Positions 6,693-11,213 of a DNA stretch of 11,213 nt are shown here, in pieces. The first letter of the stretch is position 1. Each line of letters begins with the position of its first letter. The notes beneath the pieces are model-generated. The model saw nothing but the letters and a program-made list of their open reading frames with translations, ran no database searches and was not told the origin of the DNA. Origin of the DNA: Aequorivita sp. (GTDB lineage: Bacteria; Bacteroidota; Bacteroidia; Flavobacteriales; Flavobacteriaceae); the NCBI GenBank assembly GCA_002733915.1, contig NVXN01000007.1, positions 56,473 to 67,685 of the forward strand. The letters are read 5' to 3'. Made by a program: the position numbers and the translations under genes.

Positions 6693-8747
6693 TCAATAGT
6701 TCAAAATTTCTAAAATCTTTTTCTTTACTTTTTCTGTAGAAGGAATCATTGTTTCCTCCAAAGTGGAATTTAGCGGGATTGCCGGCATATTTTCAGAACC
6801 AATCAACATCACTGGGGCATCCAATTGCTGAAAACATTCTTCTTGAATCTTCCCCTGAAGCCCTCTGCTGAAACCGTTTTCGGAGGGTTCTTCCGTTACA
6901 ACCAGACATTTTCCGCATTTTTTCACACTTTTGAAAACCGTTTCATAATCCAAAGGATGAAGCGTCCGCAGATCGACAACTTCAATCTTCTCCTGCATTC
7001 CAAGTTCCTCGGAAGCGTTCATCGCCCAATGTACGCCCATTCCGTAGGTAATTATTGAAAGTGTTTCCTCCTCTTCCTGTTTCCAGATTTCCTGCAAAAC
7101 CCAAGCTTTTCCAAAGGGTAAAATATAATCTTCCGAAGGCATCAGCGAAGTCGCTCCTTTTGTTCCTTTCACTTTGCTCCAATACAAACCTTTGTGCTCA
7201 AAAATCACCACGGGATTTGGGTCGTAATATGCTGCTTTTAGCAATCCCTTTAAATCTGCACCGTTGCTCGGGTAGGCAATTTTCAATCCGCGGATATTTG
7301 TAACGACACTTTCCACGGAAGATGAATGATATGGGCCACCGCTGCCGTAGGCCCCAATCGGCACACGTAAAATCATTGAAACTGGCCATTTTCCATTGGA
7401 AAGGTAACAGCTTCGGGAAACTTCAGTAAAAAGTTGGTTTAGCCCGGGCCAAATATAATCGGCAAACTGAACCTCAACAATTGGTTTCAGTCCAACGGCA
7501 CTCATTCCAACAGTACTTCCAACGATAAACGCCTCTTGAATTGGCGTATTAAAAACGCGATTGTCACCAAATTTCTGGGCCAAAGTCGCCGCTTCGCGAA
7601 ACACACCGCCCAAGCGTCCGCCCACATCCTGTCCATATAGCAGACACTCTTTGTGCTTTGCCATCAATTCTTCAATGGCAAAAAGGGCACAATCAACCAT
7701 CACCACTTTTTCACCGCCTTTTGGGGAACGATCACCACTTTCTTCAGTAATTTCAGTCGGTGCAAAATCGTGTGTAAATAAATCTTCCGGCTTTGGGTCT
7801 TCAGCTTTTAAAGCTTTTTCTAAACTATCACTCACTTCTTTTTTTGCAGAATTTTCAATTTCTGAAAGTTCTTTTTCTTCAAAACCATTTTCCAAAAGCA
7901 ACTTCTTCAATTTGGGATAGGGGTCACGGCTTTTTGCTTCTTCCAAATCATCGCGATAAAATTCCATGCGAACTCCAGAAGTATGGTGATTTAAAAGCGG
8001 AACTTTCGCGTGCACTAAAAACGGCCTGCGCTCTTTTCTTATTTTTGAAATAACATTTTGAATGGTATTATAACTTTCTTCAAAATCGGTTCCATCTATT
8101 GAAACCGCTTCCAAACCGTGAAAACCTGCGGCGTATTCAAAAGCGTTTTGCGCTCGGGTTTCCGCAGCATTTGCGGAAATATCCCAACCGTTATCCTGAA
8201 CCAAATAAAGAATCGGCAGTTGTTTTAACGCAGCCATTTGAAAAGCTTCCGCTATTTCGCCTTCAGTAACTGATGCATCACCCAAAGAACAAACCACAAT
8301 GGGCAATTCTGAATTCTGAATTCTGAATTCTGAATTAAAAGATTCTTTATACCAAAAACCCATTGCCACACCCGTGGCTGGAATTGCTTGCATTCCCGTA
8401 GCAGAACTTTGATGTGGGATTTTCGGCTTATCATCATCCCTCAAACTTGGATGCGAATAATACGTTCTTCCACCAGAAAATGGATCATCCTTTTTCGCTA
8501 AAACCTGCAGCATCAATTCGTAAGGTTTCATCCCGATTGCAAGCAACATTGAATCATCCCGATAATATGGAAAAGCGTAATCCTGCGGTAAAAGCTGCAT
8601 TCCTACTGCAGTTTGGATTACCTCATGCCCGCGGGAAGTTGCGTGCACATATTTTGAAACTACTTTAAAATTCTCTTCATAAATCTCGGTCATCGCCTTG
8701 GCAGTAACGAGATTTTTGAAGGCTTTTTTTAATATATCTTTATTCAT
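6693..8747 (-). CDS. 2-oxo acid dehydrogenase E1, fused alpha/beta subunits
   Basis: This thiamine diphosphate (ThDP) enzyme decarboxylates a 2-oxo acid and passes the acyl group to lipoyl-E2. The alpha part (about 1-315 of 684) has the cofactor motif, GDASVTEGE at 156-164 through DNGW at 185-188, plus HHTS near 254. An acidic linker (about 316-346) leads to a full beta part with NTPIQEAFIVG, EVQFADYIWPGLNQL and RVPIGAYGSGGPYHS. The alpha/beta fusion and neighbouring E2 favour the branched-chain type, but pyruvate or mixed specificity cannot be excluded. I chose ATG 8747 (MNKDILKKAF). A longer start at 8789 would add 14 residues encoded by a palindromic repeat, which are unlikely to be real. 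Residues 137-148 (FNSEFRIQNSEL) come from a 7-bp tandem repeat and interrupt the segment before the ThDP motif. Confidence 0.92.
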   Translation of the reverse strand: MNKDILKKAFKNLVTAKAMTEIYEENFKVVSKYVHATSRGHEVIQTAVGMQLLPQDYAFPYYRDDSMLLAIGMKPYELMLQVLAKKDDPFSGGRTYYSHPSLRDDDKPKIPHQSSATGMQAIPATGVAMGFWYKESFNSEFRIQNSELPIVVCSLGDASVTEGEIAEAFQMAALKQLPILYLVQDNGWDISANAAETRAQNAFEYAAGFHGLEAVSIDGTDFEESYNTIQNVISKIRKERRPFLVHAKVPLLNHHTSGVRMEFYRDDLEEAKSRDPYPKLKKLLLENGFEEKELSEIENSAKKEVSDSLEKALKAEDPKPEDLFTHDFAPTEITEESGDRSPKGGEKVVMVDCALFAIEELMAKHKECLLYGQDVGGRLGGVFREAATLAQKFGDNRVFNTPIQEAFIVGSTVGMSAVGLKPIVEVQFADYIWPGLNQLFTEVSRSCYLSNGKWPVSMILRVPIGAYGSGGPYHSSSVESVVTNIRGLKIAYPSNGADLKGLLKAAYYDPNPVVIFEHKGLYWSKVKGTKGATSLMPSEDYILPFGKAWVLQEIWKQEEEETLSIITYGMGVHWAMNASEELGMQEKIEVVDLRTLHPLDYETVFKSVKKCGKCLVVTEEPSENGFSRGLQGKIQEECFQQLDAPVMLIGSENMPAIPLNSTLEETMIPSTEKVKKKILEILNY
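8305..8336. repeat. 7-bp tandem array (AATTCTG x4.6) inside the E1 gene
   Basis: Four perfect AATTCTG units plus AATT lie in the alpha part of E1. On the coding strand they read NSEFRIQNSE in frame. Because the unit is 7 bp, gain or loss of one or two units would shift the frame, and only changes of three units keep it. The array ends about eight residues before the ThDP motif. Confidence 0.95.
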
Positions 8748-8760
8748 TGTTTGTTTTTTT

Positions 8761-8843
8761 GAATCACGAAACACGATGTTTGGAATCACGACTTATAAAC
8801 ATCGTGATTCGGGCAGTGAACGCAGCGAACGATCGTGGTTCAA
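8761..8843. repeat. Palindromic repeat, copy A, next to the E1 start
   Basis: The core at 8783-8843 (61 bp) aligns over its whole length, in the same orientation, with copy B at 9259-9320; most differences are transitions. The ends GAATCACGA and TCGTGGTTCAA are near-complementary. An extra left part adds two perfect inverted repeats: CACGATGTTT (8772-8781) with 8797-8806, and GAATCACGA (8761-8769) with 8802-8810. It lies just upstream of the E1 start codon. Confidence 0.85.
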
Positions 8844-8857
8844 CAAGTGTTTTTATA

Positions 8858-9223
8858 TTAATTGTTAGGTTTTAGCATATCCATAAAATTCGATATTTTA
8901 CTCTGCAACGCTTGCACTTTATCTTCCAATTCTAAAAATAACTCTTTAGAAATAAACTCTTGACGGTAGCAAACAATCAATTGTGTTTCCCATTCATAGG
9001 CAGAACCTAACCTATCATCTAAAAATTTGATAAAGTGCCTATCAGTTCTTTTACTTGAACCCTCTGAAATATTTGAAGCAATTGACACAGAACAGCGATT
9101 CATTTGGGTTCGCAAACCAAATTTTTCATAGTCCGGAAATGTTGAAGTCAGCTTATAATTCTCGTCGATTAACTCAATGGCCAATTGCCAAATTTGGAGT
9201 TTTTTAAAATTGTGCCTTCTCAT
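8858..9223 (-). CDS. Four-helix-bundle protein, 23S rRNA IVP family
   Basis: This 121-residue protein matches the four-helix-bundle family first found in 23S rRNA intervening sequences. Diagnostic segments are FKKLQIWQLAIELID near the start, TFPDYEKFGLRTQMNRCSVS in the middle, then SNISEGSSKR and a GSAYEWETQL helix. Four amphipathic helices fill the length. Members are small and have no known enzymatic activity. They are often found in repeat-rich settings, and relatives serve as accessory proteins in diversity-generating retroelements, but no reverse transcriptase or variable repeat is seen here. ATG 9223 (MRRHNFKKL) matches the family start. A longer start at 9265 would add residues overlapping repeat copy B. 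It lies inside the E2-E1 cluster on the same strand, so it is probably transcribed with it, though nothing suggests a role in 2-oxo acid oxidation. Confidence 0.9.
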   Translation of the reverse strand: MRRHNFKKLQIWQLAIELIDENYKLTSTFPDYEKFGLRTQMNRCSVSIASNISEGSSKRTDRHFIKFLDDRLGSAYEWETQLIVCYRQEFISKELFLELEDKVQALQSKISNFMDMLKPNN

Positions 9224-9256
9224 ATTATTATTTTTTGAAGCTTGAAACCCGACCGA

Positions 9257-9320
9257 TTGAATCACGACTTCTGAACCTCGTGGCTCGTGCAGCGAGCACC
9301 AGCGAGCGGTCGTGGTTCAA
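9257..9320. repeat. Palindromic repeat, copy B, overlapping the E2 stop codon
   Basis: The end arms TTGAATCACGAC (9257-9268) and GTCGTGGTTCAA (9309-9320) pair over 12 positions with one G-T wobble. An inner hairpin is formed by GCTCG (9283-9287) and CGAGC (9293-9297). About 50 of 62 aligned positions match copy A by eye. The E2 stop codon (TGA, 9319-9317) lies in the right arm. Confidence 0.85.
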
Positions 9321-10603
9321 AACGTCCTTTCAACATCAAACTGTTCCATATAATCCGCAATTTTCCGTAAAAAAGAACCCGCCAAATATCCATCTACAAT
9401 GCGATGGTCGAAAGAAAGGGATAGGTACATCATTTGTCTGATTTCAATAGTATCACCTTCTTCCCGTTCAATTACTTCAGCACGTTTTTTTATAATTCCC
9501 GTTGCGAGAATCGCGGCTTCAGGCTGGTTGATTATGGGTGTTCCCATCAAACTTCCAAAAGTCCCCACATTGCTAATTGTGAATGTGCTGCCTTGGGTAT
9601 CATCACCTTTCAGCTTATTATCACGGGCTTTTACAACAAGTTCATTTGTTGTTTCGGCCAATTCTTTTAAATCTTTCTTATCGGCACTTTTTACAACGGG
9701 AACAATCAGATTTCCCGAGGGAAGCGCCGTCGCCATTCCGATATTTATTACGTCTTTTACAATGATATTTGTTCCATCAAGCGTGGAATTTATCATCGGG
9801 AAATCTGTAATCGCTTTCGCCACACATTCAATAAAGAGTGGCGTGAACGTGAGTTTTTCCTTATATTTTTTCTGAAAAGCGACTTTGTTATTATTACGCC
9901 AATTTGCCATTTCTGTTAAGTCTGCTTCAACGTAAGCGGTTACGTGCGGTGAAGTATGTTTGCTGAAAACCATGTGATCCGCAATCATTTGGCGCATACG
10001 ATCCATCTCAACAATTTTACCTTTTCCTTTATCAAATTTTAGATCGGGGATTTGAAAACCAGAAACCTCAGGAACGGACTGTGCAAACTGAAACGGACGA
10101 CCGTTTTCCAAATAGTTCATAACATCACTTTTTCGCAAACGGCCCTCTTTTCCTGTTCCTGGAATTCGGGCAAGTTCTTCGTAACTGATATGATTTTTAC
10201 GAGCAATCGCGTCAACCAAAGGTGAAATAAAAACGTTTTCGTTTACTTTAAAGGATGCTGGCCTCGAAACTTGTTTTTGCGCTTTTGGTTTTTCGGAAGT
10301 TTCAGTTTTAGAAACTTTTTTTTCTGAAGTCTTTCCCGAAGCTTTTGAAGCTCCTTTTTCCCCGGAAAGCTCTAAAATAGCAATCACTTTCCCAACGGGC
10401 ACCACATCCTTTGCTTTAAATTTTTGTTCAAGCATTTTTCCAGAAGCTGGGGCGGGAACTTCATTATCCACTTTATCCGTTGCAACCTCCAAAAGAATAT
10501 CGCCTTCCTCGAACGAATCGCCTTCGTTTACTAGCCAATTGAGAATGGTTCCTTCTGTAATGCTTTCGCCCATTTTGGGCATTTTAAATTCTGTTTTCGA
10601 CAT
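9317..10603 (-). CDS. 2-oxo acid dehydrogenase E2, dihydrolipoamide acyltransferase
   Basis: E2 forms the cubic or dodecahedral core and transfers the acyl group from lipoyl-Lys to CoA. Its 428 residues show, in order, one lipoyl domain (about 2-79) with the lipoylated Lys44 in EVATDKVDNEVP, a Lys/Ser/Glu-rich flexible linker (80-120), the peripheral subunit-binding domain that holds E3/E1 (FISPLVDAIARKNHIS from 125, ending about 165), a second linker, and the catalytic domain (about 195-428) with the active-site motif DHRIVDG and His400. No domain is broken. A single lipoyl domain and an E1 alpha/beta partner nearby favour the branched-chain type. ATG 10603 is eight bases after the stop of the upstream PaaY-like gene, so the two are co-transcribed. 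The final stop codon is supplied by a repeat element. Confidence 0.94.
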   Translation of the reverse strand: MSKTEFKMPKMGESITEGTILNWLVNEGDSFEEGDILLEVATDKVDNEVPAPASGKMLEQKFKAKDVVPVGKVIAILELSGEKGASKASGKTSEKKVSKTETSEKPKAQKQVSRPASFKVNENVFISPLVDAIARKNHISYEELARIPGTGKEGRLRKSDVMNYLENGRPFQFAQSVPEVSGFQIPDLKFDKGKGKIVEMDRMRQMIADHMVFSKHTSPHVTAYVEADLTEMANWRNNNKVAFQKKYKEKLTFTPLFIECVAKAITDFPMINSTLDGTNIIVKDVINIGMATALPSGNLIVPVVKSADKKDLKELAETTNELVVKARDNKLKGDDTQGSTFTISNVGTFGSLMGTPIINQPEAAILATGIIKKRAEVIEREEGDTIEIRQMMYLSLSFDHRIVDGYLAGSFLRKIADYMEQFDVERTF

Positions 10604-10611
10604 AGTTGCCT

Positions 10612-11213
10612 TTATTCTTTTATCTCTTTTCTGAATTCAGAAATGGTTTTATAAAAATCTTCCTGTATTGGCCTGTTCTTCGGAATCTCCCGCAACGGTT
10701 CCACTTCTTTCAAACTTTCGTAACAATCCGTTGGCAATTGCTGGTATAATCGTGTTCCGGCCGTTTTCCACGCAATCATTTCATCACTGATATCTTTTAT
10801 AGCTTTCGCCGGGTTGCCCACAATCAATTTCCGCTTTGGAAATTTTTCTTCGGCTTTTACAAAACTCATGGCCCCTACGATACATTCATCACCAATTTCG
10901 GCATCGTCCATAATCACGCTGTTCATCCCGATCAAGCAATTTTTGCCCAAATTCGCCCCGTGAATTATCGCGCCGTGCCCTACGTGTGCGCTTTCTTTCA
11001 ACACAATGCTTTTACCTGGAAACATATGGATGGTGCAGTTTTCCTGCACATTCACGCCATCCTCCAAAATGATTTCACCCCAATCGCCGCGAATTGCCGC
11101 ACCGGGACCGATATAGCAATTTTTCCCAATGATCACATTGCCAGTAACAGCCGCCAAGGGGTGAACGAAACTGCTTTCGTGAACTACTGGAATATGGCCT
11201 TTGAAACTGAAAA
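10612..11213 (-). CDS. paaY: PaaY/CaiE-like hexapeptide-repeat protein, 5' end missing
   Basis: This is a left-handed beta-helix protein of the gamma-carbonic-anhydrase group. The coding frame stays open to the right edge and reads FSFKGHIPVVHESSFVHP before the visible TTG at 11157, which matches the family N-terminus. The true start is therefore only a few codons beyond the window, and TTG 11157 is not the start. Hexapeptide turns (VIIGKNCYIGPGAAI, NLGKNCLIGMNSVI) are clear. Three probable zinc ligands occur as TIH, VGH and IIH, with the last two five residues apart (His44, His61 and His66 counted from the TTG). The C-terminal part with WKTAGTRLYQQL resembles PaaY and CaiE rather than true Cam carbonic anhydrases. 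PaaY is described as a thioesterase that clears dead-end CoA adducts. Position at the head of the E2-E1 cluster suggests a CoA-thioester role here, which is inference. Confidence 0.85.
   Translation of the reverse strand, partial: FSFKGHIPVVHESSFVHPLAAVTGNVIIGKNCYIGPGAAIRGDWGEIILEDGVNVQENCTIHMFPGKSIVLKESAHVGHGAIIHGANLGKNCLIGMNSVIMDDAEIGDECIVGAMSFVKAEEKFPKRKLIVGNPAKAIKDISDEMIAWKTAGTRLYQQLPTDCYESLKEVEPLREIPKNRPIQEDFYKTISEFRKEIKE

Follow-up and report, generated by a model that had tools for sequence, protein, structure and literature searches.

An IVP-family gene cassette between E2 and E1 of a 2-oxo acid dehydrogenase operon, and the short-repeat arms of related loci

The window analyzed is a stretch of 11,213 nucleotides of Aequorivita sp. 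(GenBank assembly GCA_002733915.1, contig NVXN01000007.1, positions 56473-67685), part of a 3.14-Mb draft genome. Three minus-strand genes are transcribed in the order E2, IVP, E1. The gene 5' of the cassette in transcription encodes the 2-oxo acid dehydrogenase acyltransferase (E2; 9317-10603; PF00198 at 8.6e-76, PF00364 and PF02817), and the gene 3' of it is a fused E1 alpha/beta gene (6693-8747, with the start at 8747 taken from the reading frame; PF00676, PF02779 and PF02780). The gene between them (8858-9223) encodes, as the initial annotation of this DNA had proposed, a four-helix-bundle protein of the IVP family; it is intact and codes for 121 amino acids. It matched PF05635 at 2.3e-31 and 1.6e-31 with two chosen starts (108.6 bits against a curated cut-off of 33.8) and TIGR02436 with a score of 101.6 (cut-off 24); PF05635 was its sole Pfam match over cut-off. 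The bAvd family PF22296 matched weakly (E 0.013, below cut-off), and the nearest solved structure by sequence was 2gsc (E 8.4e-17). The NCBI model name is only 'four helix bundle protein'. As a protein family the IVP is ordinary; its operon and arm setting is not. Seven same-site orthologs form 21 pairs, of which 14 yielded a dN/dS estimate, in every case 0.02-0.07 with dS mostly saturated; the gene is under purifying selection.

Two repeats of about 61 bp in the same orientation flank the IVP gene, as first described, one on its 3' side (copy 1; 8783-8843) and one on its 5' side (9259-9320), with 50 of 61 aligned positions identical. Local alignment of the flanks in direct orientation scored 77, and the maximum in 2000 mononucleotide shuffles, which preserve base content and not dinucleotide content, was 27 (0/2000 reached 77). 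The description of the repeats as palindromic holds in part: each copy is partly self-complementary, copy 1 contains a perfect 9-bp stem (GAATCACGA...TCGTGATTC), and fold z-scores ranged from -1.3 to -3.9, varying by copy and strand. The inverted score of the two flanks was 18, a value reached by 116/2000 shuffles (not significant). The cassette had also been said to fill the interval from the E2 stop to the E1 start without harm to either gene. It does lie between the genes, but the upstream copy overlaps the E2 stop (9317-9319), and an extra partial repeat unit (8761-8782, with GAATCACGA at 8761) intervenes between copy 1 and E1. The last two E2 codons and stop (9317-9325, minus strand) are ACG TTT TGA, which we read as an insertion scar; most empty sites carry AAA ATT TAA. 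A genome-wide repeat without a link to IVP genes was rejected, since two repeat-derived patterns, allowing up to 3 mismatches, matched only the window locus in this genome.

An E2 search of 59 genomes returned 30 loci, of which 28 belong to the own genome and 27 congeners. Site classes (IVP type, hairpin class or remnant) were assigned by eye, and by these assignments 7/28 E2-E1 junctions carried a window-type IVP (own genome included; the six congener proteins were 78-93% identical to that of the window), one carried a different IVP subfamily (PF05635, 4.5e-24), three held repeat remnants without the gene, and 17 had no IVP, with spacers of 34-186 nt and in many cases other hairpins. Empty sites therefore exist, and the gene is not fixed at this place in all relatives. 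An E2 C-terminus of the form ..TF* with TGA was found at 6/7 IVP-occupied, 2/3 remnant and 0/17 empty sites; it tracks occupied and remnant sites, and the element therefore overlaps the last codons of E2. The element appears to have been lost from the remnant sites L026 and L031. In the E2 DNA tree, seven changes were needed to account for the seven occupied rows, all forced by well-supported branches: IVP presence at this junction is patchy, with no phylogenetic clustering. Among six same-site orthologs of the window IVP the inverted score of the flanks was 24-49, the arms of one ortholog matched those of another as well as its own, and in several congeners the repeat arrays between IVP and E1 were longer.

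The own genome had nine IVP matches by protein search and 14 by profile, and arms were studied at the nine. Each of these has a gene of its own strand to either side. By eye, eight (all except that of the window) carried tandem arrays of short repeats on one flank and the reverse complement of these on the other; by score, 7/9 passed the level set for inverted arms. A sample of 149 loci was then assembled from the best-scoring matches in each source (nine own, 30 from relatives, 80 named loci from the genome collection and 30 from the phylum), a non-random set, mostly Bacteroidota, in which orthologs make counts non-independent; six of the 80 named loci fell outside Bacteroidota by record title and are possibly mislabeled or contaminated metagenome bins. 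Both flanks were available at 145 of these loci; there, each upstream flank was aligned with its downstream counterpart in reverse complement, and swapped flanks served as control. The mean inverted-arm score was 30.5 for own flanks and 17.1 for swapped flanks (maximum 18.5 in 10,000 permutations); 99/145 loci exceeded the 95th percentile of the swapped set, 52 exceeded the 99th, and 46 fell below the 95% level. Among non-IVP genes in the stretches of the own genome that were read, 6/128 reached a score of 26, and the top two of these adjoin IVP genes; five IVP genes in the same test scored 13 (the window's), 34, 35, 40 and 58. The paired same-orientation repeats described in the initial annotation are present at the E2-E1 site of the window but are a peculiarity of that site and not quite right as a general rule, inverted short-period arms, of a sequence that varies by site, being commoner.

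The arms have a common anatomy. At the 92 loci with a score of at least 26, a period of 7 was dominant in 72, as against 26/145 control stretches; the 5' arm was rich in G (0.24 G, 0.10 C), with the 3' arm as its mirror. Arms began a median of 3 nt past the upstream stop and ended a median of 7 nt ahead of the next start, and thus nearly fill the intergenic gap. The upstream gene was co-directed at 139/145 loci and the downstream gene at 114/142 by a simple ORF picker, and at 138/146 and 132/145 by a second picker; for control genes of the own genome the upstream neighbor was co-directed in 172/242. Taken together, the loci suggest that a small element shapes the spacers of operons in many Bacteroidota, with a PF05635 match present in 116/148 sampled genomes.

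Arm motif and IVP lineage were compared over pairs of loci without any homologous neighbor gene. The mean cross-arm score was 16.8 at 40-50% IVP identity (n=5302), 20.7 at 60-70% (n=84) and 32.8 from 70% upward (n=16; 12 of these pairs scored above 24, and eight of the 16 derive from five loci), and the score in the opposite orientation hardly climbed (16.1 to 17.7). Arms were thus common to 12/16 unrelated-site pairs at IVP identity of at least 70%, as against about 2% at 40-50%; the four close pairs without common arms all came from one pair of IVP groups. The Mantel correlation of arm likeness with IVP identity was 0.20, a value reached in 0/2000 permutations. The TAGAATA-type arms of L170 and L153, for example, also occur in L127 and L119, where the flanking genes are unrelated, and in an IS/MITE comparison an arm motif was common only to close IVP relatives across sites. 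The motif is tied to IVP lineage, and because arms follow IVP identity at unrelated sites, arms and IVP gene tend to behave as one unit.

Heptamer-type arrays also occur away from IVP genes, with 16 noncoding arrays in 300 kb of the own genome. Twelve of these were compared with arm sets (four dropped, two shortened); the score was 29.2 against own IVP arms and 20.4 against 60 random arm sets of other genomes, 0/60 of which reached 29.2, a difference to which same-genome base make-up may contribute. An abundance of solo hairpins in the own genome was rejected, as 1/87 tandem spacers (40-350 nt, 300-kb sample) scored at least 32.

Predicted RNA paired both arms (at least 10 pairs) in 53/70 sampled loci, compared with 26/70 when the 3' arm was swapped, and RNase III-like excision is therefore possible. 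The window cassette, folded whole, had arms that paired mainly within themselves. Selection on RNA pairing as the force maintaining the arms was rejected: arm mismatches compatible with G-U numbered 154, as against 188 of the opposite kind, giving no G-U bias in sense RNA, and the arm duplex energies of sense and antisense strands were equal (-52.55 and -52.56, p 0.95). These two results together point to arm complementarity that seems to be made or kept at the DNA level.

Plasmids yielded 16 records with IVP matches, mainly cyanobacterial, and 8/13 of the plasmid loci read exceeded the swapped 95th percentile of that set. In one of these, L245 on a plasmid of Azospirillum lipoferum 4B, the IVP lies inside a 23S rRNA gene (RF02541, 2529 bits). 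Its 5' arm consists of four 7-nt units (GACGGAT GACAGAG GACGGAG GACAGAA), and the opposite side has the inverted partner; these are arms of the same kind as those of the operon cassettes, and the comparison with 23S rRNA arms is that one locus. At three cyanobacterial plasmid loci (L236, L237 and L239) the IVP is antisense to both neighbors, and co-direction with the host operon is thus usual and not obligatory. We assign a probability of about 0.6 to the reading that the window cassette belongs to a widespread class of IVS-like mobile elements outside rRNA. That many IVP relatives carry similar short-repeat borders suggests that the 23S rRNA inserts are one face of a larger mobile-element family.

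Host junctions recur across distant species. Over 146 loci, 26 lay at one junction, which we take to be 3-hydroxyacyl-CoA dehydrogenase / thiolase of beta-oxidation (also called fadB-fadA below), 18 at the next, presumably thiolase / acyl-CoA dehydrogenase, and six after E2. Others lay between subunit genes that, as we assume, resemble cysD/cysN, mutA/mutB and nuoC/nuoD. A resolved IVP tree for counting site changes was rejected (too few columns, 72/145 inner branches open); on the poorly resolved tree the fadB-fadA site needed 14 changes, a figure that is indicative only. Such recurrence (26/146, 18, and six after E2) is also what would be expected if IVP and arms resided in particular operons as a device for RNA processing or for balancing expression, retained for host benefit and often lost where unneeded, and the low dN/dS of the pairs that gave a value (0.02-0.07) and the upstream co-direction at 139/145 loci agree with such a host regulatory module. 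We nevertheless consider it unlikely, as one junction holds different IVP types and arms, or none, within a single genus, the IVP is antisense to both neighbors on three cyanobacterial plasmids (L236, L237, L239), and presence at the E2-E1 junction shows no phylogenetic clustering.

Near-identical cassettes were found between diverged flanks. Between L033 and L038, identity was 98.1% in the IVP genes, 94.5% in the left arms and only 67% in the right arms; it was 76.5% in E2 (85.5% over the last 200 bases) and 85.5%, dropping to 77%, in E1. At the fadB-fadA junction, with classes assigned by eye, 20 genomes of the genus (own included) held four IVP types in eight, heptamer-type hairpins without IVP in nine and other hairpins in three; among eight order-level relatives with both genes, an IVP was present in one, and in five the gap measured 0-9 nt. 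The IVP cassettes of L213 and L220 were 96.3% identical over 540 nt between flanks of 80 and 83%, and the gene-less hairpins of L210 and L216 were 98.9% identical between flanks of 83%, with the remaining 20/22 same-class pairs at this junction 75-92% identical. Some identical tracts extended into neighboring genes by tens of bases, about 120 at most, and junctions with and without an IVP were alike in this. Exchange of cassettes and hairpins between species is therefore well supported, with the IVP no more than a candidate driver of it. A phage vehicle for the IVP was rejected, as the phage collection gave no match at 1e-5.

At the E2-E1 junctions of L022, L029 and L035 the spacer measures 51 nt, has no IVP and contains a GGTCGAG hairpin; it was 98-100% identical between species, with flanking genes about 57-93% identical in 60-nt windows.

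Given that IVP-free hairpins are exchanged and that tracts enter coding sequence, ordinary recombination could suffice as the means of exchange. The IVP might then be a passive passenger that rides along in the quick turnover of hairpins between cistrons and of heptamer arrays prone to slippage. The IVP-free hairpins exchanged between species (the 98.9% pair with 83% flanks; L022, L029, L035), the lack of G-U bias in the arms and the heptamer arrays elsewhere in the own genome are all in keeping with this account, but it does not explain two-sided arms that match each other and the IVP lineage across unrelated sites, or the rarity of such arms at control genes, and we judge it improbable. Chance or artefact, in which the window repeats would be a lone duplication and the other IVP loci compositional noise, draws on the non-significant inverted score of the window, is already disfavoured by the swapped-flank and permutation controls and by a direct repeat reached in 0/2000 shuffles, and is very improbable.

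Under the preferred reading, that of a widespread IVS-like element class outside rRNA, the element would consist of an IVP gene and, on either side of it, an arm made of short repeats, mainly 7 nt long, with the two arms in most cases mutually inverted, nearly filling the gap between two usually co-directed genes. It would be transcribed along with the host operon; the arms could loop out the IVP message, which host RNase III or a similar enzyme might cut away, and excision would leave both neighbor genes expressed. The IVP protein may act on its own arms and so favor maintenance or spread of the element. Movement between cells would be by host recombination or by an enzyme in trans other than a reverse transcriptase of the own genome. 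The initial annotation had suggested a small mobile unit that might rely on an enzyme in trans; the cassette does look mobile and is patchy in the genus, but no reverse transcriptase (PF00078) that could act in trans was found in the own genome (draft, 96.3% complete), and that candidate was rejected. PF00078 was likewise not found in the IVP-rich congeners G013, G016, G020 and G026 (17-21 IVP matches each), and a reverse transcriptase in trans is therefore unlikely here. A broader and more doubtful possibility is that IVPs are the recognition proteins of a large unrecognized mobile class: each lineage would read its own heptamer, the ends would be inverted heptamers, ORF-less hairpins would be non-autonomous members, 23S IVSs would be the members that landed in rRNA, and the elements would re-invade cognate intercistronic sites in a homing-like manner, with no known recombinase or reverse transcriptase of their own.

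To our knowledge, the role of the IVP protein and the spread of rRNA intervening sequences are old open questions. The IVP loci described here supply natural pairs of a protein and a matching arm motif, gene-less counterparts and apparent recent transfers, with which binding, excision and transfer are directly testable. Intervening sequences of 23S rRNA with an S23/IVP ORF reportedly also occur in Leptospira. In another arrangement, that of REP/REPIN sequences with RAYT, palindromic or inverted short repeats enclose a single gene, and hairpins lacking the gene occur elsewhere; the window cassette is like it in having a single gene between short repeats and gene-less hairpins as well, and unlike it in that the gene encodes a four-helix-bundle protein and no Y1 (HUH) transposase and the repeats vary by locus. 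In Coxiella a 23S rRNA IVS is cut out by RNase III at its stem (PMC4990558); it shares with the present cassettes the protein family and a sporadic distribution and, with those that have inverted arms, an ORF within inverted repeats that could form a stem. Unlike that IVS, the window cassette lies between the protein genes E2 and E1 and not in rRNA, and its repeats are direct rather than clearly inverted. Gene-bearing and gene-less hairpins at one junction resemble the ORF-bearing and ORF-less rRNA insertions, with IVP, of CPR bacteria (PMC11270868). Avd proteins of diversity-generating retroelements are a related four-helix bundle (PMC10053308), a likeness that for the window IVP stands at the below-cut-off PF22296 match (E 0.013); unlike such a retroelement, the draft own genome (96.3% complete) had no match to the PF00078 reverse transcriptase.

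IVP genes between protein genes are known from CRISPR-cas loci (PMC3936711), in passages that do not mention repeat arms or mobility; L241 and L247, two such loci in our plasmid set, have inverted arms. Intergenic 7-nt tandem repeats have been described as TAACTGA heptamer arrays in Bacteroidetes and cyanobacteria, mostly direct and before start codons (PMC4679880); the main text of that paper contains none of the terms helix bundle, S23 and intervening. No account of heptamer or inverted-repeat arms around IVP genes outside rRNA was found in the open-licence literature searched.

Several minor observations concern individual loci. On cyanobacterial plasmids, IVP genes lie within cas operons at L241, L247 and L238 (cas6/cas4, cas10/cmr3); the first two exceed the level set for inverted arms, and at L238 the AAAGCTA arrays are direct. 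The antisense IVP of L237, on a Nostoc edaphicum plasmid, lies between the ribonucleotide reductase beta and alpha genes, and its arms are near-perfect inverted TAGGGAG arrays. A second IVP gene of the own contig (L002; contig 67749-68093), 50% identical to the window IVP, lies just right of the window, two genes further upstream, and has its own AAAAGGAT-type arms; the neighbor gene at window 10612-11157 was preceded by an IVP match in 10/27 congener loci read. At the other end of the window, inverted TTTGGAA-type heptamer arms (307-354 and 477-512) lie between two convergent genes and enclose no IVP gene. Within E1, window 8306-8334 (codons about 139-151) contains in-frame heptamer-type repeats (NSEFRIQNSEL), in a loop that is hypervariable among congeners, some of which carry repeat-like peptides such as DSRLRG; repeat turnover of the heptamer type may reach into the E1 coding sequence.
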